49,893 bases of DNA from Clostridia bacterium. Its GTDB lineage: Bacteria > Bacillota > Peptococcia > DRI-13 > SM3-B62. Made by a program: the position numbers and the translations under genes. The notes below the pieces were generated by a model. That model searched no databases. It saw only the letters and a list, made by a program, of their open reading frames with translations, and had not been told where the DNA came from. The DNA lies in assembly GCA_018433675.1 (NCBI GenBank), contig JAHDQS010000025.1, positions 1-49,893 of the forward strand, read 5' to 3'. Shown here piece by piece: positions 4,260 to 21,636 of this stretch; the first letter of the stretch is position 1, and the number at the start of each line of letters is the position of its first letter.

Positions 4260-4281
4260 CCGATAACCTCCTTGTAAATTA

Positions 4282-4312
4282 ATTAAAGCCCTAATCAGAT
4301 TAGGGCTTTAAT
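4282..4312 (-). terminator. Perfect 14-bp hairpin between the M20 gene and ald
   Basis: Arms ATTAAAGCCCTAAT (4282-4295) and ATTAGGGCTTTAAT (4299-4312) are exact reverse complements around the three-base loop CAG. It begins 6 bases after the M20 stop codon on the minus strand and is followed by a T/A-rich run, so it is probably the (possibly leaky) terminator of the sigma-54 operon, upstream of ald. Confidence 0.65.
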
Positions 4313-4317
4313 CTTAA

Positions 4318-5580
4318 CTATAACACTCCGCACCAATCCATGATAAACCGTGCATACACCTTTGTCGTTTCAAGCATGCTGGGCAATTCCACGTATTCAT
4401 CATGAGCATGAGGATTACCTCCGTTTGGCCCGTAGCAGGTTGCCGGTAAGCCGTAATAGAGCGGCCAAAAGCGATGATCGGCGCTTCCCGGGGAATACAT
4501 GGTTTCGGCTTCACTGCCGGTAATTTCCCGATGAACTTTCGCCAGTAAGCGAAGAAAATCAGTTTCCGGATCAATCAGGCATCCTTCGCAGTGTATCCCC
4601 GTCCAGGTAAATTCCGGAGGATTATCTTTTAAATAAGGATGCTCCCGGACAACCCCGGCCATATGTTCCAGTATCCTTTCTTTGGCCTCTTCGATTGTGG
4701 TGCCGGGATAGAAGCCAACCCTTGTCGTGAAAACGCACTGATCCGGTGCCATGGCCGGCCAATCACCGGCGGCTATTCTGCCCACAGTAAAATTGATCGG
4801 ATGTTCCAAATGCGCGCAACTGGGATGACGCACAAGGTTCATTTCCTCTTCCAGTTTTCTTAGTCCCTGGATTAGGTAGAGTGCATTGTCAAAAGCGTTA
4901 GTCCTTTGCAAGCCGGCCATCGGATGAGACGGTATTCCTGGAACAACCGTCCGTAGCCAAATGATTCCGCCAGTACCCACCAGGATTTTCTGACCAAAGG
5001 TTTCGGGAACCAGACATCCGTCCCCACGATAACCCCTTTCCAAACAGGCCACAGCACCATTGCCGCCACCTTCCTCATCTGTTACCGCCTGCAGGATTAC
5101 GTCCCCGGCCAGCTTAATGCCTGCCTGTTGAATCGCTTTGACGGCATATATCATAGCGGCAACCCCGGCCTTCATGTCCGTCGAACCCCGGCCGTACATC
5201 CTGTCTCCCTCAATTTCTGCACCCCAGGGATCCCGAGTCCAGTACCTTTCAGTTCCCAGGGGAACTACATCCACATGTCCGTTTAAAACTAAGGACCTGC
5301 CTTTTTTTTGCGGTGATTCCAGCACCCCCACTACTTGGGGACTCACGGAATAATCCCATTCCGTTGGTGAATAGCCCGGTAACTTATTAATTTTGCTGAT
5401 GTTAATGTCGAACATATCCACCTTCAAGCCCATTTCCACCAGCTTATTTTTGATATAGCGCTGAACTCCTTCTTCGTTTCCCTGGGTGCTTGGAAAACGA
5501 ACCAGCGCCTGGGTAAACTGCACTTCCTCTTCCCATGATTCGTCTATTTTTTTCATTACATTTTGAATCGCTTTTTCCAT
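4318..5580 (-). CDS. M20-family metallopeptidase / ArgE-DapE-type deacylase
   Basis: A 420-residue cytoplasmic zinc-dependent amidohydrolase of the ArgE/DapE/ACY1/CPG2 family. Metal ligands and catalytic residues are visible as LNGHVDVVP (H102, D104), GRGSTDMKAG (bridging D135) and TDEEGGG (catalytic E169 and ligand E170). The dimerisation (lid) domain lies between about 200 and 310. I placed the start at the ATG at 5580, with GGGGGGTG five bases before it; a GTG at 5595 is an alternative. It is the last gene of the leftward operon beginning with BKACE, so it may release the amino or keto acid precursor of the pathway from an N-acyl derivative; that is inference. The family cannot be assigned a substrate from sequence. 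Confidence 0.9.
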   Translation of the reverse strand: MEKAIQNVMKKIDESWEEEVQFTQALVRFPSTQGNEEGVQRYIKNKLVEMGLKVDMFDINISKINKLPGYSPTEWDYSVSPQVVGVLESPQKKGRSLVLNGHVDVVPLGTERYWTRDPWGAEIEGDRMYGRGSTDMKAGVAAMIYAVKAIQQAGIKLAGDVILQAVTDEEGGGNGAVACLERGYRGDGCLVPETFGQKILVGTGGIIWLRTVVPGIPSHPMAGLQRTNAFDNALYLIQGLRKLEEEMNLVRHPSCAHLEHPINFTVGRIAAGDWPAMAPDQCVFTTRVGFYPGTTIEEAKERILEHMAGVVREHPYLKDNPPEFTWTGIHCEGCLIDPETDFLRLLAKVHREITGSEAETMYSPGSADHRFWPLYYGLPATCYGPNGGNPHAHDEYVELPSMLETTKVYARFIMDWCGVL

Positions 5581-5636
5581 TAACACACCCCCCACAAAAT
5601 ATTCATTCTGTCAATTAACACTTATTTGTTCATCGA

Positions 5637-6989
5637 TTAAGCCGTGATAAACATCATACTGGCACAGAAAACAATGGTAATGGCCAGAAAACCAAGTATG
5701 CAGTAGCCGAAGATATCTCTGATTTTCAGGCCTGCAATAGCCAAGAGAGGTATAGCCCAGAAAGGCTGAATGATGTTACTGAAAGCTTCACCGAACATAA
5801 AGGACTCGACAATGGTAGGTGCCGAAACCCCAAGAGCCAAACCGGCCTTCGTCACAATCGGACCTAAGATGATAAAGATTCCGCCGGAGGAAGGAATGAA
5901 GAGGTTGACAATGGCTCCTACCAGGTAATTCCAGAGTGGGAACGTGAAGGGAGTGGCCAGTTGTATCAGCCCCAAGGCAAACATGCTGGCTAAGCCGGAT
6001 TGCGCCATCATGCCCTGAATACCGGCATATATCGGAAACTGTAATACGATACCCCAACTGATTTTTGTGCCTTCGGCAAATGCCGTGTAGAATCTTTTAG
6101 GCGTCCAATGCATGAGAATACCCAAGGTCAGCATCATCAAGTTAAACATATTCATAGTCATACCGGTAAATCCATGTAAAGATAACCACTTCACAAGGTA
6201 TACACCCATTATCAGGGCTAAGAGAATGTTGAAAACCGGACAATCTTCAATCTTATCGGCAAAGGTTTTTTTATCGGAGCTCACTTCCTCGACTTCTATC
6301 TCTTGAGCAAGATGGGCAACCGTTTCATCGCTTAAATACGGAGTATCCTCATCATCGGGATGCATGGACCACATTAAAAGAGGAAGCACAATAAATCCGC
6401 ATATGGCCATCGGTACCAAGGCCATCATGCTCAGGGCCGTCGCCCCCGGGGGAATGAGCCCGATAGTTTCTTCCAAGAAATGACCCGGGGTATTGACCAG
6501 CAATACTTCCGAAGCGGATAAACCGACCTGTCCCAGGGAATAACCGATAAAGGTAGCCGCAATCAATAATTTAAATTCCAACTTTTTCATATTTCGGCCA
6601 ATTTCACGAGCCAGCAAAGCACCTCCAACCAATCCAACACCCCAATGCACGAAGGCCAAGCAAGCGGCAACTACAGTAACAAAAATAACTGCCTGCACGG
6701 AATTTTTAGGGATGCGGGCTAGGGTACTGAAGAATTTTTTGCCCAAAGGTGTTGTCGCAATAACAAAACCTGTCACGAGTATCATAACCATTTGCATAGA
6801 AAACGCCAGGAAGTTCCACATATTCTCGGAGAAGTAGGTGGCCATTTCCATGGGCCCTTGACCGGCAACAATAATACCTAATGCGAAAACTATGATAACC
6901 AGCGCTACGGCAAATAAGAATGATTCCGGTACATATTTTTCCATTCCGAAACCGAGGGATCTACTGATCTTTTGTATGAATTTCCTCAT
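5637..6989 (-). CDS. atoE: Short-chain fatty acid transporter, AtoE family
   Basis: A 450-residue polytopic membrane protein, close to the 440-460 residues of the AtoE family that carries acetoacetate, butyrate and related short-chain acids. It opens with an amphipathic segment (FIQKISRSLGFGMEKYVPESFLFA) typical of the family and has about a dozen hydrophobic helices, with conserved stretches such as FVHWGVGLVGGALLAREIGR and VNLFIPSSGGIFIILGPIV. I chose the ATG at 6989, which lies eight bases after AAGGAG; the ATG at 6995 would be only two bases from it. Its position between the acyl-CoA synthetase and the M20 deacylase suggests uptake of the keto-acid substrate, or exchange of it for an acid end product. 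Confidence 0.9.
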   Translation of the reverse strand: MRKFIQKISRSLGFGMEKYVPESFLFAVALVIIVFALGIIVAGQGPMEMATYFSENMWNFLAFSMQMVMILVTGFVIATTPLGKKFFSTLARIPKNSVQAVIFVTVVAACLAFVHWGVGLVGGALLAREIGRNMKKLEFKLLIAATFIGYSLGQVGLSASEVLLVNTPGHFLEETIGLIPPGATALSMMALVPMAICGFIVLPLLMWSMHPDDEDTPYLSDETVAHLAQEIEVEEVSSDKKTFADKIEDCPVFNILLALIMGVYLVKWLSLHGFTGMTMNMFNLMMLTLGILMHWTPKRFYTAFAEGTKISWGIVLQFPIYAGIQGMMAQSGLASMFALGLIQLATPFTFPLWNYLVGAIVNLFIPSSGGIFIILGPIVTKAGLALGVSAPTIVESFMFGEAFSNIIQPFWAIPLLAIAGLKIRDIFGYCILGFLAITIVFCASMMFITA

Positions 6990-7031
6990 TATCATCTCTC
7001 CTTCTCTTACTATTCTAATTTTAACTTTATT

Positions 7032-7748
7032 TCACCTTTGCATCGCAATTATTTTTCTATTCTCGTCCACCTCCTTCGTCAAAACCCGGACATCCAGGAC
7101 TTGGACACCCTTTTCATAAATCCTGACCGGATTAAAGTCCATTTCTACTATCCCGGGTGTCTCCATCAGGAGGTTGGATACCTTGAGCAACAGTTCAATC
7201 AGGGCTTCTATATCCAGCGCAGCTTTTCCCCGTGTCCCTTTCAGAATAGGATATCCCTTTATCTCTTCAATCATCTCCACGGCATCCTTTTTCTTTAACG
7301 GGCAAATTCTAAAGGAGACATCTTTTAAAACCTCTACAAAAACACCACCTAAGCCAAACATTATCGTCGGTCCAAAAATACCGTCTTGGGTTGCCCCAAT
7401 AACAAGCTCCACTCCTTCTTGGGCTTGCTTGCAGACCAGTATCCCTTCAATCACAGCGCTAGGCTCAGCGGCACATACTGTCTCGGAAATCTTGACATAG
7501 GCTGCTTTTACCTCAGAGGCATCCTTTAGTCCAACCCGTACTCCGCCGACATCGCTTTTATGAACAACCTGCCGCGAAACTACCTTCATTACCACCGGAT
7601 ACCCTATTTTATCTGCAATAATTACGGCCTCGGCCGGGCTGCGGGCCAACCCGTACTCCGGGTAATTAATCCCATAACTATCTAATAATGAAATTGCTTC
7701 CGGCTCTAACATGAATAATGTTTTTCCTTCGGTCACTTGCTCAGTCAT
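7032..7748 (-). CDS. acdB: ADP-forming acyl-CoA synthetase, beta (ATP-grasp) subunit
   Basis: A 238-residue ATP-grasp protein resembling the beta subunit of archaeal and bacterial NDP-forming acetyl-CoA synthetases (about 230 residues). The ATP-grasp N-terminus is seen in YPVVMKVVSRQVVHKSDVGGVRVGL, the family signature with the KxxSxxxxHKsdxGGV motif, and the C-terminal half contains EGVELVIGATQDGIFGPTIMFGLGG and EMDFNPVRIYEKGVQVLDVRV with the terminal metal-binding Asp/Asn. The ATG at 7748 has AGGAGGG 10 bases upstream; the reading frame is open further upstream but there it overlaps acdA. The ATG overlaps the acdA stop by 8 bases, implying translational coupling. With AcdA it converts acyl-CoA + ADP + Pi into acid + CoA + ATP. 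Confidence 0.92.
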   Translation of the reverse strand: MTEQVTEGKTLFMLEPEAISLLDSYGINYPEYGLARSPAEAVIIADKIGYPVVMKVVSRQVVHKSDVGGVRVGLKDASEVKAAYVKISETVCAAEPSAVIEGILVCKQAQEGVELVIGATQDGIFGPTIMFGLGGVFVEVLKDVSFRICPLKKKDAVEMIEEIKGYPILKGTRGKAALDIEALIELLLKVSNLLMETPGIVEMDFNPVRIYEKGVQVLDVRVLTKEVDENRKIIAMQR

Positions 7749-9123
7749 TTGCTTGTTCCCTCCTATACCGCCCATACTCGGCCAGGGCTGCCAGAGCACG
7801 CGCCGCTCGCTCCGGAGTAGGATAAACGGGGATTCCCGCTTTCTGCATGGTTTGGCGGCCTTCTTTTTCCGCTTCTCCCCCGCCCATATAGGCGACAACG
7901 ACCGGCACCTTCACCTTTTCTGCATATTCTATAATGACATGCTCCACACCGGGAACAGGATCTGCTATCACAAAAAGGTACATATCCGCATAATCATAAC
8001 GGGCCATTATCTCTAAAGCCGCCTGCCATTTGTCTTTTTCAAACCCGGGTATATCACAGTAGTTGCCGATATTTATCCCCCCGGAGGAAAGTATGGTGGA
8101 ACCCTTCAGTTCCTCCACTGTTTCAGCAGGCATCGAAACGATTTGCAGCCCCTTGGATTCGGCTTCGTCAATAAAAAGGCTGATCGTACCCCCGGATGTC
8201 GTCGCCACGCCGACACGATTACCTTTTGGCAGAGACTGCATACCCAAAGCCTTGACAACGTCATAAAAACTTTCCATTTCCGACGCCCTTGTTACACCAT
8301 ATTGCCGACAAGCATATGAAAATATTTTATCGTCACCGGCGATTGATGCTGTATGCGATGCTGCTGCCCGGCTTCCGCCTTCAGTCCTTCCCGGTTTGAG
8401 TATTACTACAGGCTTTCGGAGTGCCGTTCTTTTTAGAGCTTCGCCAAACCGCTTGCCGTCTTTGGGTCCTTCCAAGTAGAGCGCTATTACACGGGTATCA
8501 GTATCTTCAGCCATGTACTCCAAAAAATCGGCTTCACAAAGATCGGCCTGATTGCCCAGATTAATCATATTTGAAAACCCGACACCTTCCGTTTCAGCCC
8601 ACTCCCCAATCGTAGCGGATACCGAACCACTCTGTGAGACAATACCGATGGGTCCGCGCCTAGTCAAAAAGGGAGCCGGCATGATACATAAATTACTGTA
8701 GGTTGAGTTAATGCCCTGTATATTAGGACCGATCACCCTCAGGTCGCCTTGTTTGATAACCTGTTGAAGTTCTTCCTCCAAGGCCGTATTGCCCGCCTCA
8801 CGAAAACCGGATGTTAGAATCACGGCACCTCTTGCTTTTTTCTCTCGCCCTTGTCGCAGCACTTCCGGTACTGCTTGGGCCGGCACCACTACCACCAGTA
8901 AATCCACCGGCCCGGGAATATCAGTCACAGATGGGTATGCCGGTACACCTAATACATTCGACTCTCTGGAATTTACAGCATACAACCCACCTTGATAACC
9001 GGCCTTGATGAGATTTTTTAATATCTTATATCCCCATTTTTCTTGCTTGTTAGAAGCTCCAACTACCGCGATATGTTCAGCACTGAGAATATCCTTCAGA
9101 ACCTGTGTTGAATTACCTTTCAT
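7741..9123 (-). CDS. acdA: ADP-forming acyl-CoA synthetase, alpha (CoA-binding) subunit
   Basis: A 460-residue protein with the domain order of the alpha subunit of NDP-forming acyl-CoA synthetases: a CoA-binding Rossmann domain (AEHIAVVGASNKQEKWGYKILKN, about 15-110), a first succinyl-CoA-ligase-like domain (GPIGIVSQSGSVSATIGEWAE) and a second one with the run SRAAASHTASIAGDD, which contains the phosphorylatable histidine equivalent. It sits 20 bases after BKACE and overlaps acdB by 8 bases. Alpha and beta as separate genes is the archaeal Acd arrangement; many bacteria have a single fused protein. In this operon it would conserve the energy of the acyl-CoA made by BKACE as ATP. Confidence 0.92.
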   Translation of the reverse strand: MKGNSTQVLKDILSAEHIAVVGASNKQEKWGYKILKNLIKAGYQGGLYAVNSRESNVLGVPAYPSVTDIPGPVDLLVVVVPAQAVPEVLRQGREKKARGAVILTSGFREAGNTALEEELQQVIKQGDLRVIGPNIQGINSTYSNLCIMPAPFLTRRGPIGIVSQSGSVSATIGEWAETEGVGFSNMINLGNQADLCEADFLEYMAEDTDTRVIALYLEGPKDGKRFGEALKRTALRKPVVILKPGRTEGGSRAAASHTASIAGDDKIFSYACRQYGVTRASEMESFYDVVKALGMQSLPKGNRVGVATTSGGTISLFIDEAESKGLQIVSMPAETVEELKGSTILSSGGINIGNYCDIPGFEKDKWQAALEIMARYDYADMYLFVIADPVPGVEHVIIEYAEKVKVPVVVAYMGGGEAEKEGRQTMQKAGIPVYPTPERAARALAALAEYGRYRREQAND

Positions 9124-9143
9124 ATGTCACCAACTTCCTTTAT

Positions 9144-10139
9144 CTATGATGGCCAATGAATGTCTGCTGCTTTTTCCGGATAAACACTGGGTTTCGGCGA
9201 TACGCCAAGCATCTCCCTAGCCTGAGCGGGAGTCGCAATCTCACGACCCAATTCCCGTGCTATGCGAACTATTTTTTCTACTGCCTCAGCGTTGTTCTTT
9301 ATTCTTTGCCCACGTTTCATATACAAGTTATCTTCCAGCCCCACGCGCACGTTGCCACCAAGGATAATACCCATTGTTGTCATCGCCCACTGGTACTTGC
9401 CAATGCCAATGGTGCTGAAGACAGAACCATTAGGCATGTCGCGCACCAGATCAATAAGGTTTTGCGGTGTAGGGAACGATGATGTCTGGTAACCCATGAC
9501 AAATTGGAAAAGATAAGGAGGTTCGATAAGCCCCTGTTTTATCAACTCCTGACTTACCCAGTATTGTCCTGGATGATACACTTCCATTTCAGGTTTTATC
9601 CCTTTTTCCTTCATAACAGTTGCCAGCTTTGCTAAAATTCCATACGTATAAGGGGTACAACTGTCATAGTAAATTCCGTCATGGGGATGAGGCAACGGTG
9701 CCTGCCGCGGCGGCATACTGAATTTGACCATTTCCGGACCCATATTGAGAGAAGCCAGTTCAGGCTTGGCATCCAGACAGCGATAGCGCGCTTCCATGGT
9801 GATATTCATATCTCCGCCGGTAGTATTGTTTATGATGATATCGGGGCATTTCTCCCGAACCAGCTTATTTATTTCGTAATATACCCGCCAGTCATCGGTA
9901 CACTTATATAGACACTCCGGGTCCCTGCCGTGGATATGTATAACGGAAGCCCCGGCATTATATGCGTCATAAGCTGAGTCCGCTATCTCCGAAGGGGTCT
10001 CCGGTAACGCGCTGTTGCTTTCTTTGCCCTGTACTCCCCCGTTAATTGCCACCGTGACGATCAAAGGGTCATGATTCCCCGGCGTTCTTTTCATCCATTC
10101 GTAGGCATTCGTATAGTCCCACGCATATTCCTTGCTCAT
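9144..10139 (-). CDS. Beta-keto acid cleavage enzyme (BKACE, formerly DUF849)
   Basis: A 331-residue zinc-dependent TIM-barrel enzyme of the 3-keto-5-aminohexanoate cleavage enzyme family, which reacts a beta-keto acid with acetyl-CoA to give acetoacetate and a new acyl-CoA. The metal ligands H68-I-H70 (VIHIHGRD), the substrate-carboxylate region TVAINGG, PEMEVYHPGQY and the C-terminal GGNVRVGLEDN with E269 are all present. The N-terminus is about 20 residues longer than usual (MSKEYAWDYTNAYEWMKRTP). The ATG at 10139 has GGGAGGA six bases upstream, so an upstream in-frame ATG at 10169 was not used. It is the first gene after a sigma-54 promoter. No lysine-fermentation genes (kamA, kamDE, kdd, kal) are nearby, so the substrate need not be 3-keto-5-aminohexanoate; dehydrocarnitine-like or other keto acids are possible. 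Confidence 0.93.
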   Translation of the reverse strand: MSKEYAWDYTNAYEWMKRTPGNHDPLIVTVAINGGVQGKESNSALPETPSEIADSAYDAYNAGASVIHIHGRDPECLYKCTDDWRVYYEINKLVREKCPDIIINNTTGGDMNITMEARYRCLDAKPELASLNMGPEMVKFSMPPRQAPLPHPHDGIYYDSCTPYTYGILAKLATVMKEKGIKPEMEVYHPGQYWVSQELIKQGLIEPPYLFQFVMGYQTSSFPTPQNLIDLVRDMPNGSVFSTIGIGKYQWAMTTMGIILGGNVRVGLEDNLYMKRGQRIKNNAEAVEKIVRIARELGREIATPAQAREMLGVSPKPSVYPEKAADIHWPS

Positions 10140-10204
10140 CTTATCCTCCCTTTCCTCTTGTTGAAACAAGTTTTAGAAATCATACAGCAACTGCATAAAT
10201 GTAT

Positions 10205-10220
10205 CGCAATTCTTGTGCCA
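10205..10220 (-). promoter_or_regulatory. Sigma-54 (-24/-12) promoter of the BKACE operon
   Basis: Read on the minus strand the sequence is TGGCAC-AAGAA-TTGCG, matching the sigma-54 consensus TGGCACN5TTGCA at all -24 positions and at 4 of 5 positions in the -12 element, with the invariant GG and GC at the correct spacing. Transcription would start near 10193, giving a leader of about 55 bases before the BKACE ATG. The adjacent upstream gene encodes a sigma-54 activator with an intact GAFTGA loop. Confidence 0.88.
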
Positions 10221-10266: not shown

Positions 10267-10322
10267 GAATAGACACAAAAATATCACGCGGGGAAAACCA
10301 CGTGATATTTTTGTGTCTATTC
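10267..10322. terminator. Perfect 22-bp-arm palindrome: terminator and possible activator region
   Basis: Positions 10267-10288 and 10301-10322 are exact reverse complements around a 12-base loop. The stem is GC-richer at its tip (ATCACG/CGTGAT) and A/T-rich at the base (ACACAAAAAT/ATTTTTGTGT), the layout of a bidirectional intrinsic terminator. It lies between the end of the sigma-54 activator gene and the sigma-54 promoter it probably serves, so it likely stops activator transcription from running into the operon; it may also be bound by the activator. Confidence 0.65.
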
Positions 10323-10334
10323 ATTTTTGAATAG
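10317..10334. promoter_or_regulatory. Candidate upstream activator site (palindrome)
   Basis: CTATTCA-TTTT-TGAATAG is a perfect 7-bp-arm palindrome whose centre lies about 130 bases upstream of the predicted sigma-54 start, the usual distance for an enhancer-binding site. An almost identical copy (CTATCCATTTTTGAATAG, one base different) is at 10404-10421, in the last codons of the activator gene. Two spaced copies fit binding of a dimeric activator. Confidence 0.5.
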
Positions 10335-10399: not shown

Positions 10400-12085
10400 T
10401 TAACTATCCATTTTTGAATAGTTCTTAACATGCTTTTTTAATTTACGTACAGCCGAAGATTGACTGATACCCAGAACTCTGCCTACTTCCACCGTTGTCT
10501 TATATTTTTCGTAGACACTGAGGACAAGTTCCCGCTCATGATATTCCAGCATCTTCTTTAAATTCATTCCCTTATATCCTTTCGTTGAATCCAGACAACT
10601 GATATAATCCGGCAGACAACTTATGTCGATAATATCTTTATCGGATGTTAGAATCAGTCTTTCCACAATGTTTTGCAGTTCGCGCACGTTACCCGGCCAA
10701 GAATAAGACATCAACGCAGAAATCGCTTGCTCGGAAAAGACCTTGTTCTTGTTATGACGTTTGTTCATCTCTTCTACCAGATGCATCAGTATAATCAATA
10801 TGTCTTCAGATCTTTCTCGCAGAGGAGGGATATTAATTGGCACAACATTTAATCTATAATATAAATCTTCCCGAAACTTCCCTTCTTTTACCAGCGTCAT
10901 CAGATTCCTGTTTGTGGCTGAAATCAACCGGAAATTGACCGAAATGGATTTGGTTCCGCCAACACGAGTTATCTTTTTCTCCTGAATCACTTTTAGGAGT
11001 TTTACCTGTAGATTCAAAGGAAGCTCTCCTACTTCGTCCAAAAAAAGAGTGCCATTATTTGCAAGCTCAATTAAGCCGATTTTCCCTTCATTTTTAGCCC
11101 CTGTAAAAGCCCCCTTTTCATAACCGAATAGTTCCGACTCTATAAGATTATCCGGAATAGCACCGCAGTTGATATCAATTAAGGGACCTTCACAAAACGT
11201 ACTGTTTTCATGTATTAGAGTAGCTAATAAGTTTTTACCGACACCCGATTCACCTGTAATTAAGATATTGGTATTGGTTTGGGCCACTTTCATGGACAGC
11301 TTTAAGATATTTTCAATCTGCGGGCTCTTGTAAATAACAGTTTTTTTACTAATTTCTTTTACCTTTATTTCCTCGGCGTAGTGTTCCATCAAGCCATATA
11401 ATCTTTCGTAATGCTCCTTTAGTTCAATATAATTCGTGATGTCCCATGAATCATAACTTACTACCCACTGAATCTCATTACATTCGTTAAACACCGGGAC
11501 TCCTGTACAGAGAATCTTTTGACCATTATTATCGTGTTGCAAGATAGTAACTTTACTTTTTTCTTCCAATACCTTTAAAGTAGCTGATGGTGAAATGATT
11601 TCGTCTCTTTCTAGGTTTGAAATATGCTTACCAATAATCTTATCGGCTGCCAGCTTGTTTCTCTTTTCCCAGCTTGGACTAACATATAATACTATTCCCT
11701 GACCATCGGTAATAGTCATGATGTCGTGAACAAGTTCAAAGATTCGCAGGGCGTCATATGTCATTGAATTATCATTAAAGCTTTTTAATTCTCCCAACAT
11801 CTTATGCAGTTCCTGAAACAAAACAAGATTATATGGATTCCCTTCCCAGCTAATAAAGAGGATTGTAATGTAATATTTTTCTCCATTGATACTTATCACC
11901 TGGTTTAAAGGCGCATCCGGATTATTGATAAATTCAAATCTGGGAATAAGCTCTTTTATATTTTTACCAATCACTTCATTGCCACCGGAAAAAGTAGTTA
12001 AGGCTTTATCATTGGCATATTCGATAATACACTGGTTATTAATCCTGATTATACCGGTAGCAAACATCTTTATCGCTTTAGCCAT
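10400..12085 (-). CDS. Sigma-54-dependent transcriptional activator (PAS-PAS-AAA+-Fis)
   Basis: A 561-residue enhancer-binding protein. Two PAS-like sensor segments occupy about 1-75 and 110-220 (the second with ITDGQGIVLYVSPSWEKR). The AAA+ domain follows, with Walker A GESGVGKN (278-285), the sigma-54 contacting loop GAFTGA (325-330) and Walker B GTLFLDEVGELP (about 345-356). A Fis-type helix-turn-helix ends the protein (TVEVGRVLGISQSSAVRKLKKH). The ATG at 12085 has AGAGGAA at a proper distance; an upstream ATG at 12127 lacks one. It has no receiver domain, so it probably senses a metabolite through its PAS domains, as RocR/PrdR-type activators do. A short remnant of a homologous N-terminus is at about 23235-23283. 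Confidence 0.95.
   Translation of the reverse strand: MAKAIKMFATGIIRINNQCIIEYANDKALTTFSGGNEVIGKNIKELIPRFEFINNPDAPLNQVISINGEKYYITILFISWEGNPYNLVLFQELHKMLGELKSFNDNSMTYDALRIFELVHDIMTITDGQGIVLYVSPSWEKRNKLAADKIIGKHISNLERDEIISPSATLKVLEEKSKVTILQHDNNGQKILCTGVPVFNECNEIQWVVSYDSWDITNYIELKEHYERLYGLMEHYAEEIKVKEISKKTVIYKSPQIENILKLSMKVAQTNTNILITGESGVGKNLLATLIHENSTFCEGPLIDINCGAIPDNLIESELFGYEKGAFTGAKNEGKIGLIELANNGTLFLDEVGELPLNLQVKLLKVIQEKKITRVGGTKSISVNFRLISATNRNLMTLVKEGKFREDLYYRLNVVPINIPPLRERSEDILIILMHLVEEMNKRHNKNKVFSEQAISALMSYSWPGNVRELQNIVERLILTSDKDIIDISCLPDYISCLDSTKGYKGMNLKKMLEYHERELVLSVYEKYKTTVEVGRVLGISQSSAVRKLKKHVKNYSKMDS
10404..10421. promoter_or_regulatory. Second copy of the candidate activator site
   Basis: CTATCCATTTTTGAATAG differs from the palindrome at 10317-10334 at one of 18 positions, 87 bases away. 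It encodes the last residues of the sigma-54 activator, so conservation could be coincidental, but two such copies upstream of a sigma-54 promoter suggest a tandem enhancer. Confidence 0.4.
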
Positions 12086-12211
12086 AGTAAAATGTTCCTC
12101 TTTTATCGTATATATTCTGTAATACAATTACTTCTACATACTATTTTTCTTTCCTGCTGATGAAATGTTTAACTAAAACTAATACTTATCATGAATACTG
12201 TCTACACTATT

Positions 12212-12971: not shown

Positions 12972-13165
12972 CTAACGAAGTTGTTTACACTACAAACTTG
13001 GGAATAACGTATCTTGAATAAATCGGGATCTTGCACTAGGTTCCGTCGGATTGCCCGGTAATACGTAGTCGACCTTGCAATCTGCGGCAGCGGAATAAAG
13101 GGCATCAATATTCTCTTGTCCGTCGGTGATAAAGAGAATGATCGGCATAAAATGCAGAGATATCC
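12972..13165 (-). pseudogene. Remnant of an SplB-like radical-SAM gene (3' part, internally deleted)
   Basis: Two blocks match the intact radical-SAM gene at 23318-24253. Block one (12972 to about 13045) matches 23300 to about 23373, including the stop codon and the C-terminal PRFIQDTLFPGL (here SRFIQDTLFPSL). Block two (about 13050-13165) matches about 23608-23715, encoding HFMPIIPFITDGLENIEALYSAAAD...VDYVLPG (here HFMPIILFITDGQENIDALYSAAAD...VDYVLPG). About 230 bases between the blocks are missing and the 5' half with the cysteine motif is gone. The junction leaves the reading frame open, so a short chimeric frame of about 100 codons persists, but it cannot be a functional enzyme. The rest of the gap to 13279 shows nothing I recognise. 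Confidence 0.85.
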
Positions 13166-13279
13166 CACAGATGTCCCTACACCCAACGAACCATTTGCTG
13201 GTGGAAATGCCCTGTCCCAGCCTACAGACAAATATCTTACAACACCAGAAAAGATTGAAAATCCACGAACACAGTTTTA

Positions 13280-14050
13280 TTATCCAACCCATGCTCCTCC
13301 ATTTACATCCAGTACAGCCCCGGTAATAAAAGAAGCACGCTCATCACAGAGAAATAGAACTGCATAAGCCACATCCTCTGAAGTACCGAAACGTCTTACC
13401 GGCACATTGGAAAGATGTTTTTCTATATCTTCTGATGTACGCTGATCCCAGTATGAACGTATTCTTTCACCGCTTAGAATAGTCCCGGGAGCCACAGCAT
13501 TAATAGTTATTCCAAAAGAACCCAAATCGTTTGAGGTTTGTCTCACAAGTCCTAGTATCCCCGCTTTTGCGGCTGTGTAGGGAGCCCCTGAGTTACCGCT
13601 GCCCCGCGACCGGCCTGCCTTTGAAGACATGCATACTATGCGACCGTATTTTTGTTCTTTCATTGTGGGAATTATCGCCCGGGTAAACAAATACTGATTA
13701 CGCAGATTAAGTCTGATTACTTTGTCCCAATCAGAAGGTTCTATTGTTTCCAGACTGCCATTGATGCGAAAAGACCCTCCTGCATTGTTCACCAAAACAT
13801 CTATTCTTCCAAACCCTTTAAGCATCATTTTAACCGCATTGTTTACATCGTCTTCATTGCCAGCATCACCAACCAAAGTTAAAACACTTCCAAGTTTTTT
13901 AAACTCGTCAGCCGTGTTTTTGAGTCCCTCCTCATTTATATCAAAGGCCCCAATTTCATAACTATTTATCAGCATTTCACGTACGATTTCTTTACCTATA
14001 CCGCTGGCACCTCCGGTTACAAGGGCTACACGCTTTTGTGTTTTTTCCAT
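13280..14050 (-). CDS. SDR-family NAD(P)-dependent dehydrogenase
   Basis: A 256-residue classical short-chain dehydrogenase. The cofactor loop is T12-GGASG-I-G19, the NNAG motif is at 88-91, and the catalytic triad is Ser142 or Ser143 with Y158-x-x-x-K162 (PYTAAKAG). Asp37 at the end of the second beta strand (GAFDINE) favours NAD over NADP. C-terminal motifs (NAVAPGTI, FLCDERASFITGAVLDVNGG) are those of 3-oxoacyl-ACP reductase-like and polyol/hydroxyacid dehydrogenases. It ends the leftward set HMGL-like enzyme, RraA-like aldolase, SDR (33-base gap after the aldolase), so it probably oxidises a hydroxy acid intermediate or reduces a keto acid in that pathway. The substrate is not assignable. 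Confidence 0.92.
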   Translation of the reverse strand: MEKTQKRVALVTGGASGIGKEIVREMLINSYEIGAFDINEEGLKNTADEFKKLGSVLTLVGDAGNEDDVNNAVKMMLKGFGRIDVLVNNAGGSFRINGSLETIEPSDWDKVIRLNLRNQYLFTRAIIPTMKEQKYGRIVCMSSKAGRSRGSGNSGAPYTAAKAGILGLVRQTSNDLGSFGITINAVAPGTILSGERIRSYWDQRTSEDIEKHLSNVPVRRFGTSEDVAYAVLFLCDERASFITGAVLDVNGGAWVG

Positions 14051-14083
14051 TTCAAATTACCTCCCAATGTTTCATACTTAACC

Positions 14084-14788
14084 TTAGCAGATTCCATTCG
14101 CACGCAAGTCATTATAAACATCTTCCACTATATCCCAGGGTATCACACAGATACCATTGGCATCCGCCGCAACAAGATCCCCCGGATTGACCTGGACATC
14201 GTGTAGAGTGATTGTTCCATTTATCTCCACTGTTTCTATGCGCCGCATTCCGCTGTATGGCGTTTGCCCCTTGCACCAAAAAGGATACCCTATTTTTTTG
14301 ATAGATTCTCCGTCACGCACAAGCCCGTCAACAATAGTTGCCGATAATTTATGCTCCTGCATAATTTTTGCGGCTATTTCTCCAAAATTAGAAGAAGCAC
14401 ATCCTTTGGCATCAACAATCAAAATATCGCCTTCTTGTGCAAAATAAGCGGCATCTCTGGTTGACATAAGAGATTTCTTCTGTTCAACAGGAATATCGCG
14501 TCTTATTTTTTCAGGGCAACTGCGCTGAGTAATAGCAGTTCCGACAGTTCTATATTCCGCTTTTAGCGGACTGATAACTCCTGCTTCGATAGTACACTTT
14601 CCTATACTGTATCCCAATCTATCCATCGAATCTGACAACTCGCAGGTTATGTCCGGAACTTTTTTAAAAGATTCTACTATTTCTTTTGGGATCCGCGCGA
14701 CTTCAAGCTTCACAAAACGCTCTCGTCCGAGGGCACCGTAGATTTTTCCTTCAGAAACCAAAGTTTCATAAATTTCTTTTGTGTTCAT
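14084..14788 (-). CDS. RraA-family protein, probable 4-hydroxy-4-methyl-2-oxoglutarate-type aldolase
   Basis: A 234-residue member of the RraA/HMG-aldolase fold. The signature VDGLVRD (Arg-Asp for substrate and metal binding) and the preceding GDILIVDAKGCASSNFGEIAAKIMQEH correspond to the catalytic core of HMG/CHA aldolases, which split 4-hydroxy-2-oxo acids with a tertiary 4-hydroxyl into pyruvate plus an oxo acid, or decarboxylate oxaloacetate. VNPGDLVAADANGICVIP is the conserved C-terminal segment. Catabolic gene neighbours (SDR, Claisen-type enzyme, tricarboxylate transporter) favour the aldolase role over the RNase E inhibitor role, which needs an RNase E this lineage usually lacks. It lies 13 bases downstream of the HMGL-like gene. 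Confidence 0.85.
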   Translation of the reverse strand: MNTKEIYETLVSEGKIYGALGRERFVKLEVARIPKEIVESFKKVPDITCELSDSMDRLGYSIGKCTIEAGVISPLKAEYRTVGTAITQRSCPEKIRRDIPVEQKKSLMSTRDAAYFAQEGDILIVDAKGCASSNFGEIAAKIMQEHKLSATIVDGLVRDGESIKKIGYPFWCKGQTPYSGMRRIETVEINGTITLHDVQVNPGDLVAADANGICVIPWDIVEDVYNDLRANGIC

Positions 14789-14801
14789 TTACTTGCACCT
14801 C

Positions 14802-16028
14802 TCATCGTTTATCCGCCAAGTAATTCTTGTACATGTTTTCAAACTTCTCATAAGACACGTATGATTTAGTTTTGATTGCTTCCGATTTTATTTGTGCTAA
14901 TAAAACTACTACATCTTCCGGGCTATAACTAAAGCCCAGTGAATTAAGCACCATTTCAACAGAGGCTTTTCCGCTCTTTTTCCCCAACACTATACGGCTA
15001 ACCTGTCCTACAAGCTCAGGAGCATACGCCTCCGATGTATATGACATATTCCTCATCCCTGCCACAGCAAGGCCAGACTCGTGCGCAAAACAGTTTTCAC
15101 CCACCACAGCTTTGTTTTGAGCCAGCCGTACTCCGGACAAACGCTGTACCAGTTCGGAAGTTTCCTTTAACAATGTACAGTCTATACCCAAATCCACACC
15201 ATACAATATCTGGAGCATCAATGCCACTTCCTCTGTGGCAGCATTTCCGCTTCGCTCGCCCACACCATTCATGGTTGTAGATACTACCTCTGCTCCGGCC
15301 GCTACAGCCGCAGCCGTATTAGCAACTGCCAAACCAAAATCGTTGTGAACATGGATTTCAAGAGGAATTTCTTTAAGAATACTTTTTAACTGTTTCACAT
15401 AATATTCTATGGCTTGAGGCGTAGCCGAACCCACAGTATCGACAAGACGGATTCTGTCCACAAAACCCGAGTCACGCAACACCTGGATTGTATGCATCAA
15501 AAAGTCCATGTTGCACCGTGTGGTGTCATAAGGGCTGAAATTGACATGCAGTCCTTTTTTGCGAGCATATTCTGTTATTTCGAGACACCTATCAAGATAT
15601 TTTTCATCACTCACCTTAAGCTTATATTTTCTTTGAAGATCGCCAATAGGATAGCTTATATTAGCCCCCCAAATTCCTAACTCGCACAGCAAATCTATGT
15701 CTTCTTTAAGTGCTCTGGCAAGCGCAGTGACCTTTGCTTTATGCAAATCCAAATGAGCTATGATTCGCGCTGCTTCGTGGTCCTCTTCGGAAGAAGCAGG
15801 CGTGCCTACCTCAATTTCGTGTACACCAAGCCTATCAAGCTGTTTTGCTATCTTCACTTTGTCATCGGCAGTAAATACGACCCCTGCCTGCTGTTCTCCA
15901 TCCCGCAAAGTACAATCAGTCAGTTTGATTTGCGGTGCTAAATATAACTTTTCTCTCACCTGAGGCATGAAATTGCTTTCACATAAATACCATTTATCTG
16001 TTCTGGCTAATAGTTCAGAGTTAACCAT
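14802..16028 (-). CDS. Homocitrate / isopropylmalate synthase-like enzyme (DRE-TIM metallolyase)
   Basis: A 408-residue TIM-barrel enzyme. LTDCTLRDGEQQAGVVF is the RDGEQ active-site strand, LVDTVGSATPQ and IHVHNDFGLAVANTAAAVAAGA hold the HxHND metal site, and TTMNGVGERSGNA is the GxGERxGN motif that separates acetyl-CoA-condensing members (homocitrate, isopropylmalate, citramalate and Re-citrate synthases) from HMG-CoA lyases. It lacks a C-terminal leucine regulatory domain, as NifV-type homocitrate synthases do. The ATG at 16028 has AAGGAAGGAGAG upstream; the frame extends 16 codons further without such a site. As first gene of a catabolic set divergent from a LysR regulator, it may condense acetyl-CoA with a keto acid or act in reverse; no nif genes are present in the window. 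Confidence 0.88.
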   Translation of the reverse strand: MVNSELLARTDKWYLCESNFMPQVREKLYLAPQIKLTDCTLRDGEQQAGVVFTADDKVKIAKQLDRLGVHEIEVGTPASSEEDHEAARIIAHLDLHKAKVTALARALKEDIDLLCELGIWGANISYPIGDLQRKYKLKVSDEKYLDRCLEITEYARKKGLHVNFSPYDTTRCNMDFLMHTIQVLRDSGFVDRIRLVDTVGSATPQAIEYYVKQLKSILKEIPLEIHVHNDFGLAVANTAAAVAAGAEVVSTTMNGVGERSGNAATEEVALMLQILYGVDLGIDCTLLKETSELVQRLSGVRLAQNKAVVGENCFAHESGLAVAGMRNMSYTSEAYAPELVGQVSRIVLGKKSGKASVEMVLNSLGFSYSPEDVVVLLAQIKSEAIKTKSYVSYEKFENMYKNYLADKR

Positions 16029-16120
16029 AATAGAATGCTCTCCTTCCTTAAAAAGCGCAATTACGCATGACGCCAATGTAAGTTTGTATTTTTTACCAAA
16101 AAACCCCGATTGTTGATGAA

Positions 16121-17593: not shown

Positions 17594-18334
17594 CTATTTT
17601 AGTTTGTAAAGCTTAATGGCAGAGCCACCCATAAACATAGCCCGCTCTTCTTCTGTAACGTTCATGTTCGCTGCCTTGGCCAACTCTATGGCCGTACTGG
17701 GGATTCCATCACTTGCCATTATTACGCGCTCTGCGCCGATTGTTTTAATCATCTTTTCGATGTAATGAGAAGGGCACCACGACGGCTCAAGATAAATATT
17801 TTCGCAAATCTCCGCCGCCATAATTGCTTCGTTGCTGAACGTCATTGTACCGGCGTGGCAAAGTACTATTTTAAGATTTCTGTACTGTTGAGCTTTTTTA
17901 ATAATAATGGCAGGACTGTGAGTTACATTCAATCCGGTGTGTATCATAAGCGGAATATCAAATTCGCTCGCGGCGCGAAAGGCCTTATCGGCAACCTTGG
18001 TAATAGGGTTAACACCATGCAGCAAGGGATGTAATTTGAGCGCCACAAAACCTAGCTTTTCTACACACCGCTTAACTTCTTTCATATAAACTTCTTCAGT
18101 ATGTCTGGAATGCATATCTGCAACGCCCCAAACACGTCCGGAGTGCTCTTGCGCAAAACGGTAAACACGATTATGTCCTTCAAAATTATCGGGAGTAGGC
18201 TCAGCAAGAGGCAGAACAACCATTCCGTCAATGTGGTTATCTTCCATATTTTTCAACAGCTGCTCCTCGGTATATACACTGTCTACAACATGTGAACCTC
18301 CCAGATGGATATGAGCATTGATAATCTTACTCAT
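17594..18334 (-). CDS. Amidohydrolase-family (amidohydrolase_2) metal-dependent enzyme
   Basis: A 246-residue TIM-barrel metalloenzyme. The first-strand metal motif HxH is NAHIHLGG (H7, H9), a third ligand His is in LMIHTGLNVTHSP, a fourth in VLCHAGT, and the terminal Asp in VIMASDGIPS. This is the layout of the family containing the LigI lactonase, LigJ hydratase and several decarboxylases of aromatic and dicarboxylic acids. It is shorter than the roughly 300-residue norm but all metal motifs are present. It shares a transcript with the CMD-like gene. Given the RraA aldolase and tricarboxylate transporter nearby, a hydrolase, hydratase or decarboxylase acting on a polycarboxylate is plausible, but this is inference. 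Confidence 0.85.
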   Translation of the reverse strand: MSKIINAHIHLGGSHVVDSVYTEEQLLKNMEDNHIDGMVVLPLAEPTPDNFEGHNRVYRFAQEHSGRVWGVADMHSRHTEEVYMKEVKRCVEKLGFVALKLHPLLHGVNPITKVADKAFRAASEFDIPLMIHTGLNVTHSPAIIIKKAQQYRNLKIVLCHAGTMTFSNEAIMAAEICENIYLEPSWCPSHYIEKMIKTIGAERVIMASDGIPSTAIELAKAANMNVTEEERAMFMGGSAIKLYKLK

Positions 18335-18480
18335 TCTTACACCTCCTTAATTATTTCTAAAATTGCTATTTGCATGACAAGCGTTACTAAATATCGTGTT
18401 TTATGTTACTATATAATATATTTTACATTTTATTGTAACGGAGAAGCACAACCGCAAACAAACGCATAGTCTCCGCGATT

Positions 18481-19833
18481 TTATTTTCTTAGCAATTGTA
18501 CCAGGTGGTCTGTAATATCTGGTGTTTTCTCCAGTTTCATGACAGTTTCAAATATCTTTTCAGTCCGATCCTTTCCATAAGCCTTGCAAACATAGAGATC
18601 ATATTTATCGATTACCTGCTGATATTGGTTCACCGAACGCACGGACTTGCCGAACGGATGGGTTTCATGGGTAAAAACCCGTCCGTCCGTATAGCATATT
18701 TCCGCTCTTCCTCCGCGCGTAGGAATCATGTTTTCGTCAGGCTTAAGTGTTGTTTTCTTAAGCAAAGATTTTACAACCGGGTCGTTTATAATCTCCGGAA
18801 CAAAGGTTTCACTGTCCACTTTTCCATAACACAGCCCGGCCACCGCACAGAAAGGAATACTGTATTTGCCCTGCATGGGAGTTTCGGGAGAAGGATTCCC
18901 GGCTAGCTTATAGGCTCTAGGATATGTTGTGAGATTAATGCTTATTATATCGTCTACCTTTAAATCATTTTTCGACATTATCCTGCTACAGTTAACAATT
19001 CCTGGATGTGTAGGAGCACCGCATGGAAATGGCTTAAAGTACATTTCCTGAACCGCTGCCGTCCCCGTGAGCCTTTGTAGTGCTGCTTCCCGGTTAACAG
19101 TTGTTGCCAACATCTCCAAGTAATGAGTGTCAAAGACTTTTTCCGCTGCAGTAAATTCCATTTTGGCAAGCATAGCAGCCTCCAACCCTTGGCGTGCAGC
19201 ATGAGCTGTTTGATAAATCTTTGACATATATCCCAGACTGTATTGTGTTCCCGCAGCGCATGAGGCCGCTAGACCATACGCTCGACACATCTCAAGGTTT
19301 GTCAGTCTCATTAAGTATCCGCTGGCAGCGGCAGCACCAAAAATTCCGAGGGTTGCTGTAGCAAGCCACCCTCTTGATGCGTGTTCTGGCAGTACCGCAT
19401 CCCCTAAAGCCGCCATGATTTGCATTCCTTTAATGACTGCCGTTAAAAAATCATGCCCGGATGCATTTTCACATTCCGCTGAAGCCAAAGCTGCACTTAT
19501 AACGGGCGTTTCTAAATGCATTGACAAGTAGGAGTGTATATCGTCAAAGTCCTGAGAGTGTGATGCTGTACTATTAATCATAGTTGCCCACAAAGGCGAG
19601 GCTTTATCATTCTCTCCAATAACCGTGCATGTTCTATTTCCCCCCATTTGTGCTACAAATTGCTTTACCCGCTTAACACTTTCTTCGCTTTGACCCTCTG
19701 CAGCAGCAGCAAGCCAATCGAGAAAAGCCAGTTTGCACGCAAGGAGGTTATCTTCCCCATGTTCTGTTTTGTCCCGTCTAATGGTATATTCTGACATGAT
19801 ATATGTCAATGATTTTACATCATCACAATGCAT
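18481..19833 (-). CDS. MmgE/PrpD-family protein (2-methylcitrate dehydratase-like)
   Basis: A 450-residue protein with the two-domain MmgE/PrpD architecture: a helical N-terminal domain (ASPLWATMINSTASHSQDFDD, with the family-typical A-x-x-N-[GS]-x-x-x-H-x-x-D-[FY]-D-D pattern, about residues 80-100) and a C-terminal lid (YFKPFPCGAPTHPGIVNCSRI; GKYSIPFCAVAGLCYG). Characterised members are 2-methylcitrate dehydratase, cis-aconitate decarboxylase and iminodisuccinate epimerase, all acting on di- or tricarboxylates. It is 38 bases downstream of the TctC solute-binding gene, so the transporter and enzyme are co-expressed; the enzyme may handle the imported tricarboxylate first. Exact reaction not assignable. 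Confidence 0.9.
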   Translation of the reverse strand: MHCDDVKSLTYIMSEYTIRRDKTEHGEDNLLACKLAFLDWLAAAAEGQSEESVKRVKQFVAQMGGNRTCTVIGENDKASPLWATMINSTASHSQDFDDIHSYLSMHLETPVISAALASAECENASGHDFLTAVIKGMQIMAALGDAVLPEHASRGWLATATLGIFGAAAASGYLMRLTNLEMCRAYGLAASCAAGTQYSLGYMSKIYQTAHAARQGLEAAMLAKMEFTAAEKVFDTHYLEMLATTVNREAALQRLTGTAAVQEMYFKPFPCGAPTHPGIVNCSRIMSKNDLKVDDIISINLTTYPRAYKLAGNPSPETPMQGKYSIPFCAVAGLCYGKVDSETFVPEIINDPVVKSLLKKTTLKPDENMIPTRGGRAEICYTDGRVFTHETHPFGKSVRSVNQYQQVIDKYDLYVCKAYGKDRTEKIFETVMKLEKTPDITDHLVQLLRK

Positions 19834-19871
19834 ATCTAAGCCTTTCCTTTACATCCGATTATTTTCACGTC

Positions 19872-20888
19872 TTATTCTGCCAAGAGATCCAGTTCACCGA
19901 GAATTTCCTTGTAAACGCTATAAGTGTTCTTTAAGGTTTCTTTCATTTCTTTGCCGTCGGAAATCAAGGCATTATATGACATATCTTTCATTTTTTCCAA
20001 AACCGCAGGGTCATTGAGAGCCTTGCTGAAAGCATCGTAGAGGATATCAATGGCCTCCTGATCTGTTCCCTTGGGTGCAATAATTCCCGAAAGACTCTTT
20101 GCTACGGAATAATCATATCCGAGATCCGATACGGTGGGAATACCTTCACCATATGTTTCGTCACCTGTTCCAAAGCTAACCAACACTCTGAGTTCATCTT
20201 TGAACACTTGGTTTGCCAGCGCGCAAGTCGCTTGCACATGGCCGCCCAACAAGGCCGTCATTGTTTCACTGCTACTCTTTGTGGGAACATAAACACAATC
20301 ATCTATAACTCCTGCCAGCTTGAACAAGCGAGTATAACAGATATGCTGTTCGCCGCCGATACCGCCGGAACTATAATGAAACTCGCCAGGGTTTTCTTTT
20401 ATCCAATTAATAAGCTCTTCGGCAGTCTGCCACTCTGAATCTGCTCTAACGGCCAGATAGCTGGCATCAGAAGCCACCTGGGCCACAAATTCCATATCAT
20501 CAAAGGTGTACGTGCCATTACCCTGAAGAGGCTGAAGTACCATAGGAGTATTAGATGTCCAGCCAATGGTATATCCATCAGGATCTGAATTCAGGACTTC
20601 CATTGTGCCCGTAACAGCACCACCGCCGCCGATATTTTCAACAACGATAGTCTGATCGTTGGGCAAGTACTTTGAAGCTTCATTGCACAGGAATCGCGCC
20701 AAAGTATCTGCACCGCCACCGGCACTCCAAGGAACAATCATTTTAATAGTCTTTTCCGGATAAGTACTTGATGAGGGTTCAGAGTCAGACGAAGCGGAAG
20801 ACTGGGAATCATTATTGCCGCCGCATCCGGTTGCAATAAGAGCTAAAACCATCAAAATAGCCATTGTTAAAGTCAACTTTCTTTTCAT
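19872..20888 (-). CDS. tctC: Tripartite tricarboxylate transporter solute-binding lipoprotein (TctC/Bug)
   Basis: A 338-residue extracytoplasmic receptor. A lipoprotein signal peptide (MKRKLTLTMAILMVLALIATGC, lipid-modified Cys22) is followed by a Ser/Asp/Gly-rich linker and a Bug-type domain: YPEKTIKMIVPWSAGGGADTLARF carries the substrate-carboxylate binding loop, with IGWTSNTPMVLQPL and FHYSSGGIGGEQHICY further on. It binds di- or tricarboxylates and delivers them to TctAB. Unusually, it is divergent from tctB-tctA, separated by 274 bases, and leads a transcript with the MmgE/PrpD gene. Confidence 0.93.
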   Translation of the reverse strand: MKRKLTLTMAILMVLALIATGCGGNNDSQSSASSDSEPSSSTYPEKTIKMIVPWSAGGGADTLARFLCNEASKYLPNDQTIVVENIGGGGAVTGTMEVLNSDPDGYTIGWTSNTPMVLQPLQGNGTYTFDDMEFVAQVASDASYLAVRADSEWQTAEELINWIKENPGEFHYSSGGIGGEQHICYTRLFKLAGVIDDCVYVPTKSSSETMTALLGGHVQATCALANQVFKDELRVLVSFGTGDETYGEGIPTVSDLGYDYSVAKSLSGIIAPKGTDQEAIDILYDAFSKALNDPAVLEKMKDMSYNALISDGKEMKETLKNTYSVYKEILGELDLLAE

Positions 20889-21162
20889 TTAGTTCCCTCC
20901 TATTTTTAGTTGATTCAGATTGCCACAAACCGGTACCGGTAATCGTCTCTAAATTGATTATAGCATGAGCAAATTTACGCATCTAATATCCGTTTCTTAT
21001 ATTGGCATAGGCATCACCTATTATTTAGAAAATAAATAACAATATAGGACACGTCAATATTTATATTGATAATACGTATTTTACATGCTTTAAAATGTAC
21101 CCTATACTCTAAATAGTTTACTGGTTAAAATCATCTTAAATCGGAAGGAAGGTGTTTCCCTT
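20889..21162. promoter_or_regulatory. Divergent control region of tctC and tctBA
   Basis: This 274-base A/T-rich region contains the perfect palindrome ACCGGTACCGGT (20929-20940), close to tctC, and a perfect 16-base palindrome TCAATAT-TT-ATATTGA (21054-21069) about 100 bases before tctB. Both are operator candidates for the LysR protein or another regulator. No clear sigma-54 element was seen. Confidence 0.45.
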
Positions 21163-21612: not shown

Positions 21613-21636
21613 TTATTTGGAAGGGATGTAATATTA

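Follow-up and report, generated by a model that had tools for sequence, protein, structure and literature searches.

Contig JAHDQS010000025.1 of a Clostridia bacterium (assembly GCA_018433675.1), analyzed here as a single window of 49,893 bp, carries a BKACE gene in tandem with genes for a split ADP-forming acyl-CoA synthetase (AcdA and AcdB), an AtoE-family transporter and an M20 deacylase. This arrangement raises the question of whether the five genes serve one pathway and, if so, what kind of beta-keto acid enters it. We regard it as probable that they form a sigma-54-activated operon that ferments a beta-keto acid with energy gain. Open reading frames and profile searches place the genes in one direction on the minus strand, from position 10139 to 4318, in the following order:

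9144..10139, minus strand: BKACE, 331 aa, with an N-terminal extension of about 20 residues (PF05853, 290.5 bits)
7741..9123, minus strand: ADP-forming acyl-CoA synthetase alpha subunit (AcdA-like), 460 aa, CoA_binding_2 and Succ_CoA_lig domains, TIGR02717, SHTA motif
7032..7748, minus strand: ADP-forming acyl-CoA synthetase beta subunit (AcdB-like), 238 aa, ATP-grasp_5 (PF13549, 260.5 bits), HKSDVGG motif
5637..6995, minus strand: AtoE-family short-chain fatty acid transporter, 452 aa, SCFA_trans (PF02667, 352 bits)
4318..5580, minus strand: M20 deacylase of the PRK06837 group (NF005306), 420 aa from the ATG, with an alternative GTG start at 5595

The genes are closely spaced, with gaps of 20 bp between BKACE and AcdA, 36 bp between AcdB and AtoE and 41 bp between AtoE and M20 (56 bp from the GTG start of M20); the reading frame of AcdB and the ends of the open reading frames indicate that AcdA and AcdB overlap by 8 bp. 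Sequences resembling ribosome-binding sites precede BKACE, AcdB, AtoE and the M20 ATG. The unit is bracketed by two terminator-like hairpins, and the only such site on the operon strand inside it is a weak one within AtoE, with none between genes. The five genes are predicted to be co-transcribed.

10272..10317, minus strand: terminator-like hairpin at the activator/operon boundary, 20 pairs counted, regional folding z -8.1
4281..4313, strand not assigned: terminator-like hairpin 3' of M20, 15-pair stem, z -2.75, near-symmetric and able in principle to serve both strands

Upstream of BKACE lie the features from which control by sigma-54 is presumed:

10205..10220, minus strand: -24/-12 sigma-54 promoter TGGCACAAGAATTGCG, exact match, 66 bp upstream of the BKACE ATG
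10318..10333, minus strand: putative activator site TATTCA-AAAA-TGAATA, exact, about 100 bp upstream of the -24 element, expected 0.0002 times per window
10405..10420, minus strand: putative activator site TATTCA-AAAA-TGGATA, exact, within the activator gene at its 3' end, expected 0.00015 times per window
10400..12127, minus strand: sigma-54-dependent activator (Sigma54_activat, PAS and HTH_50 in Pfam), an AAA+ protein with GAFTGA, the presumed operon regulator

As expected of a sigma-54-dependent operon, the promoter element has GG-N10-GC and a GAFTGA activator lies close by. The element TGGCACAAGAATTGCG is the sole match in the window at one mismatch or fewer, where shuffled sequence yields 1.96; its weight comes from its position between the activator gene and the operon and from its equivalents at three other operons, since similar -24/-12 sites precede the first gene of activator-linked BKACE operons on contigs C49, C28 and C22 of the same genome. 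Four of the five BKACEs in this genome have an adjoining sigma-54 activator. Both candidate activator sites are exact 16-bp dyads (TATTCA-AAAA-TG[AG]ATA). A first-pass annotation had described five co-directional genes with small gaps or overlaps behind a -24/-12 promoter; profiles agree with every family that it named and the promoter is exact.

The assignment of the first gene to the BKACE family is clear, with a PF05853 score of 290.5 bits against a curated cut-off of 24.8. When aligned with Kce, the BKACE of lysine fermentation, the window protein retains the His/His/Glu zinc ligands (H46, H48 and E230 in Kce) and the catalytic residues E143, R226 and D231, and it is predicted to exchange an acyl group between a beta-keto acid and acetyl-CoA. 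The AlphaFold model has the BKACE fold and BKACE structures are its first structural matches; confidence is low at residues 1-14 and 137-159 (the extension and the lid), and these parts of the model are not interpretable.

The substrate is unlikely to be that of Kce. Glu14 of Kce binds the substrate amino group (PMC10470551). The corresponding residue of the window BKACE is Val36, while the BKACE of a lysine-fermentation cluster (L049) keeps Glu. The protein scores 249 bits with the NCBIfam model Lys_ferment_KCE (cut-off 382) and 201 bits with the 3,5-dioxohexanoate model NF053538 (cut-off 430). Lysine 5,6-aminomutase (KamD, PF09043) was not found in the genome by a search that detects it in genome G005. 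Based on the Glu14 to Val change, the score below the Kce cut-off, a position outside the Kce clade and the lack of lysine 5,6-aminomutase, identity with Kce was ruled out, in agreement with the earlier view that the substrate is not 3-keto-5-aminohexanoate. The accompanying statement that lysine-fermentation genes are absent holds for the window and, as regards lysine 5,6-aminomutase, for the genome, but KamA/AblA and AblB are encoded elsewhere in it.

In the phylogenetic tree, the window BKACE falls in a clade (support 99/95) with two proteins of Bathyarchaeota, one of a Hadesarchaeum and one of genome G003. This clade is nested in one of ten rows (100/99), apart from Kce and a lysine-cluster BKACE. 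The three archaeal relatives are 48-50% identical to the window protein and, in a four-sequence alignment, have in common with it the extension of about 20 residues with W7, Y9 and E14. The extension, which the first-pass annotation had taken to fit an unexplored subgroup, marks a supported, uncharacterised BKACE clade. Members of the wider clade adjoin PF04199 cyclases, short-chain dehydrogenase/reductase (SDR) genes and genes resembling 3-hydroxyacyl-CoA dehydrogenases (loci L032, L033, L047 and L048). These neighbours point to neutral keto acids; none of them occurs in the window operon. In the Bathyarchaeota and Hadesarchaea loci (L032 and L033), BKACE is clustered with cyclase, 3-hydroxyacyl-CoA-dehydrogenase-like, SDR and acetoacetyl-CoA-synthetase-like genes, joined in L032 by a CoA-transferase gene, so that both clusters resemble phloroglucinol degradation, in archaea. 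L048, on contig C56 of G003, combines BKACE with cyclase, SDR and glycyl-radical-enzyme-like genes.

The remaining operon proteins are assigned with differing precision. The parts of an ADP-forming synthetase are complete: an alpha subunit with CoA-binding and Succ_CoA_lig domains and a beta subunit with ATP-grasp_5, each with a His motif (SHTA at AcdA residue 256, HKSDVGG in AcdB) of the kind whose His residues have a role in ADP-forming acyl-CoA synthetases. AcdA scores 408.8 bits with TIGR02717, below the acetate-specific cut-off of 567. AtoE far exceeds the cut-off of PF02667 (352 against 27 bits) and falls below that of TIGR00366 (346 against 575.75 bits). M20 scores 480 bits with NF005306 (PRK06837 ArgE/DapE deacylase, cut-off 376) and has the metal-site motifs. 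Its role is ambiguous, as it could act upstream by release from an N-acyl precursor or downstream by deacylation of a product such as 4-acetamidobutyrate. Homologues in Peribacillus and G152 adjoin a second M20 gene near sigma-54 activators and importers, which suggests that the window M20 may act at the entry step. One of these loci, L051 on a Peribacillus frigoritolerans plasmid, is a compact set of a sigma-54 activator, an M20 metallo-hydrolase, a PRK06837-type M20 and an MFS transporter.

The first-pass annotation had proposed a search for the same five-gene set in related genomes. It was found at no other locus in the genome collection, in 398 genomes of the phylum or in 46 of the class; the scan of the whole collection relied on exact short peptides, which a diverged copy of the operon may escape. 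BKACE searches returned only the three archaeal relatives (48-50%) from the collection, one further match at E<=1e-70 from the phylum sample (G112, 50%) and none from the class sample. Searches of the phylum sample with AtoE and M20 yielded distant homologues only, none within a five-gene set, and at no searched locus outside the window do AcdAB or a PRK06837-type M20 adjoin a BKACE.

Part of the set does recur. At four loci (L083-L086) in G010 and G003, two relatives from the same order, BKACE adjoins AtoE or is one gene apart from it, and three or four of these loci have a sigma-54 activator. L084 contains an activator, a -24/-12 element, BKACE, AtoE and then a PTA_PTB gene interrupted by the contig end; L085 an activator, a 3-oxoacid CoA-transferase, AtoE and BKACE; L086 an activator, BKACE, a 3-hydroxyacyl-CoA-dehydrogenase-like gene and AtoE in two pieces; and L083 BKACE and then AtoE. 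Some 6 kb upstream in L083 lie an activator and a further AtoE gene. The split AtoE of L086 (1435-2779 on contig C51 of G003) occupies two reading frames, through decay or sequencing error. The BKACEs of these loci belong to other clades than that of the window, and two of them score above the cut-off of the 3,5-dioxohexanoate model. Among the AtoE proteins, that of the window pairs with one of G396 (100/100) that has no BKACE nearby, and that of L085 with one of G304 (100/99). Because the partner of the window AtoE lacks a neighbouring BKACE, the pairing probably formed more than once, which favours a functional link. The recurrence of activator, BKACE and AtoE with other acyl-CoA exits (PTA_PTB, CoA-transferase) supports substrate-level phosphorylation as the likely logic of the operon, as had been proposed at the outset.

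In the mechanism that we propose, the adjoining PAS activator would sense the substrate or a metabolite and open the -24/-12 promoter, probably acting from the pair of TATTCA-N4-TGRATA sites. From a beta-keto acid other than 3-keto-5-aminohexanoate, BKACE would move the acyl part to the CoA of acetyl-CoA, so that acyl-CoA and acetoacetate form, and AcdAB would convert the acyl-CoA, with ADP and phosphate, into free acid and ATP. AtoE would move a short-chain acid through the membrane, with import of the keto acid or export of acetoacetate as the most likely cases, and acetoacetate retained in the cell would pass to a CoA-transferase and a thiolase encoded elsewhere in the genome; contig C50 carries a CoA-transferase pair with a thiolase that are predicted to be able to process it. 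M20 would cut an amide in the same pathway, either in an N-acyl conjugate, to free the beta-keto acid, or in the product, to deacylate it. We infer these reactions, the direction of transport and the M20 step from the sequences. As acetoacetate inhibits a characterised BKACE with a half-maximal inhibitory concentration of about 1.45 mM (PMC11961710), there would be reason to remove it. It is a fair guess as the cargo of AtoE, since the transporter is found beside BKACEs from different clades and acetoacetate is their common product; the AtoE proteins also differ among loci, so this argument is not decisive. Operation in reverse, with the keto acid made from acetoacetate, was rejected because it costs ATP and yields none.

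Five points weigh against fermentation of a beta-keto acid by this operon. First, none of its enzymes makes a beta-keto acid, unless M20 releases one. Second, among the loci searched the five-gene set occurs in the window alone, and comparison between genomes therefore gives no proof that M20 and AcdAB share one pathway. Third, with AcdA under the acetate-specific cut-off, the substrate of AcdAB is not predictable. Fourth, the -24/-12 match by itself is within the chance expectation given by the shuffles. Fifth, co-transcription and direct control by the adjoining activator are predictions from sequence.

A specific form of the same scheme, in which M20 acts last, is the acetylated beta-lysine branch, which we hold to be possible though unlikely. 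Lysine would be converted to beta-lysine (KamA/AblA), N6-acetyl-beta-lysine (AblB) and, by a transaminase, 3-keto-6-acetamidohexanoate; BKACE would yield acetoacetate and 4-acetamidobutyryl-CoA, AcdAB would form ATP and 4-acetamidobutyrate, and M20 would remove acetate to leave gamma-aminobutyrate (GABA), fermented via GABA transaminase and an AbfD-like dehydratase. The acetamidohexanoate route belongs to beta-lysine biochemistry; a literature search on acetamidohexanoate or yodQ/kamA returned nothing useful. BKACE, AcdAB and M20 would have consecutive roles, and the substrate would lack a free 5-amino group, in line with Val in place of Glu14. The genome encodes two AblA (lysine 2,3-aminomutase) and one AblB (beta-lysine acetyltransferase), above the cut-offs of TIGR03820 and TIGR03827, a GABA transaminase on contig C15 (TIGR00700, 562 bits, cut-off 507) and two proteins with PF11794, about 485 aa long, which in length and N-terminal sequence presumably resemble the AbfD dehydratase. 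Next to the GABA transaminase gene lie two M20 genes, one of them PRK06837-type and slightly under the model cut-off, and a sigma-54 activator, which has the top score with the window activator among those compared (43% over 468 aa). The C15 locus (L069) comprises the activator, a Tct transporter, the two M20 genes, an aldehyde dehydrogenase gene and a LarA-like gene, with GABA transaminase and malic enzyme genes opposite.

However, the operon has no beta-lysine transaminase, and none of the three class-III aminotransferases in the genome was assigned to acetyl-beta-lysine. The ablAB genes lie on another contig without catabolic neighbours, in osmolyte-like fashion, and probably make N6-acetyl-beta-lysine as an osmolyte. 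They stand in tandem (AblA, AblA, AblB; L038, 7146-10550 on C53) next to a spore-photoproduct-lyase-like gene; a glutamate 2,3-aminomutase is encoded on C33 (L039, 9224-10495; TIGR04368, 702 bits, cut-off 650). The relatives of the BKACE clade adjoin cyclases and dehydrogenases rather than amino-acid genes. Genome content makes a route via 3-keto-6-acetamidohexanoate possible and would allow M20 to free GABA from 4-acetamidobutyrate as the last step. The fuller claim, that the operon supplies the lower half so far missing from an anaerobic fermentation of acetyl-beta-lysine or a related N-acyl beta-amino acid, with a new BKACE specificity for N-acetylated keto acids, ATP from AcdAB and GABA from M20, is rather improbable; if true, it would make an osmolyte a substrate for energy conservation.

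Alternatively, M20 could supply the pathway from an imported N-(3-oxoacyl) amino compound. Its hydrolysis would give an amino acid together with a short beta-keto acid, the latter to be fermented by BKACE and AcdAB. Such a conjugate offers an N-deacylase a simple route to a beta-keto acid, which no other operon gene makes. A PRK06837-type M20 gene without an accompanying BKACE shares its neighbourhood with an importer and a sigma-54 activator at C15, in G152 and on Peribacillus plasmids. Yet AtoE carries free short-chain acids and not conjugates, and the neighbouring M20 in Peribacillus and G152 indicates other N-substituted amino acids. We know of no PRK06837-group M20 that acts on N-(3-oxoacyl) compounds, and a literature search for M20 enzymes with this activity gave nothing useful. 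We consider this entry step doubtful. The first-pass annotation had M20 feeding the pathway from an N-acyl precursor; product-side action is equally possible.

Unlikely, too, is a ring-cleavage type of substrate. In this reading BKACE would act on a neutral keto acid such as 3,5-dioxohexanoate or 5-hydroxy-3-ketohexanoate, which ring-opening enzymes, either of other cells or encoded elsewhere in the genome, would produce and AtoE would import; M20 would be incidental. The cyclase, SDR and dehydrogenase-like neighbours in the ten-row clade favour it, as does the order of cyclohydrolase, SDR and BKACE in phloroglucinol degradation (PMC10470551). Against it, cyclase, SDR and dehydrogenase genes are missing from the window operon, its BKACE is well below the dioxohexanoate cut-off, and triacetate acetoacetate-lyase (TAL) has Trp, not Val, at the Glu14 position. 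Finally, it is quite improbable that BKACE and AcdAB alone form a unit, with AtoE and M20 as read-through neighbours acting on unrelated substrates: in the loci searched, the set was not found again and AcdAB and this M20 adjoin no other BKACE, but BKACE and AtoE are adjacent at four other loci, the gaps are small and no terminator-like site separates the genes.

Three other loci were observed in the window. A decayed fragment (12990-13292, minus strand) resembles the radical SAM protein encoded at 23318-24253 (75% over 40 aa and 37.5% over another 40 aa). A small operon at 13280-16076 encodes an SDR dehydrogenase, an RraA-like aldolase and an isopropylmalate/homocitrate-synthase-like protein, with a LysR-type gene opposite. 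Amidohydrolase, MmgE/PrpD-like and TctC/TctA transporter genes at 17594-23142 probably form a further catabolic locus.

Many members of the BKACE family have substrates yet to be assigned, and the operon provides a defined test case: a single promoter, sensor and transporter, together with an ATP-forming exit, accompany a BKACE whose uncharacterised clade also has members in Bathyarchaeota and Hadesarchaea. Every gene of the operon comes from a known family; the combination of the five turned up at no other searched locus. The comparison across genomes suggests that anaerobes assemble modules for keto-acid fermentation around a recurring core of activator, BKACE and AtoE while exchanging the gene that handles the acyl-CoA, a pattern that would aid the annotation of similar operons. 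The loci L083-L086 likewise bring together a sigma-54 activator, BKACE and AtoE, but they have PTA_PTB, CoA-transferase or a dehydrogenase-like gene in place of AcdAB, lack M20 and contain BKACEs of other clades. The E. coli ato operon, AtoDAEB under the sigma-54 activator AtoC, similarly joins sigma-54 control to an AtoE transporter for short-chain keto acid metabolism; in the window, BKACE and AcdAB take the place of AtoDA and AtoB, the PAS activator has no two-component receiver and M20 is added. Kce of lysine fermentation is alike in fold, zinc ligands, catalytic residues and, as predicted, reaction type, whereas the window BKACE has Val for Glu14, an N-terminal extension and a clade of its own, in a genome without KamD. 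The TAL cluster of Clostridium scatologenes also uses a BKACE in anaerobic catabolism to give acetoacetate and an acyl-CoA (PMC10470551), but it includes a cyclohydrolase, a reductase and an SDR that the window operon lacks, relies on a CoA-transferase and thiolase where the window has AcdAB, and has Trp rather than Val at position 14.

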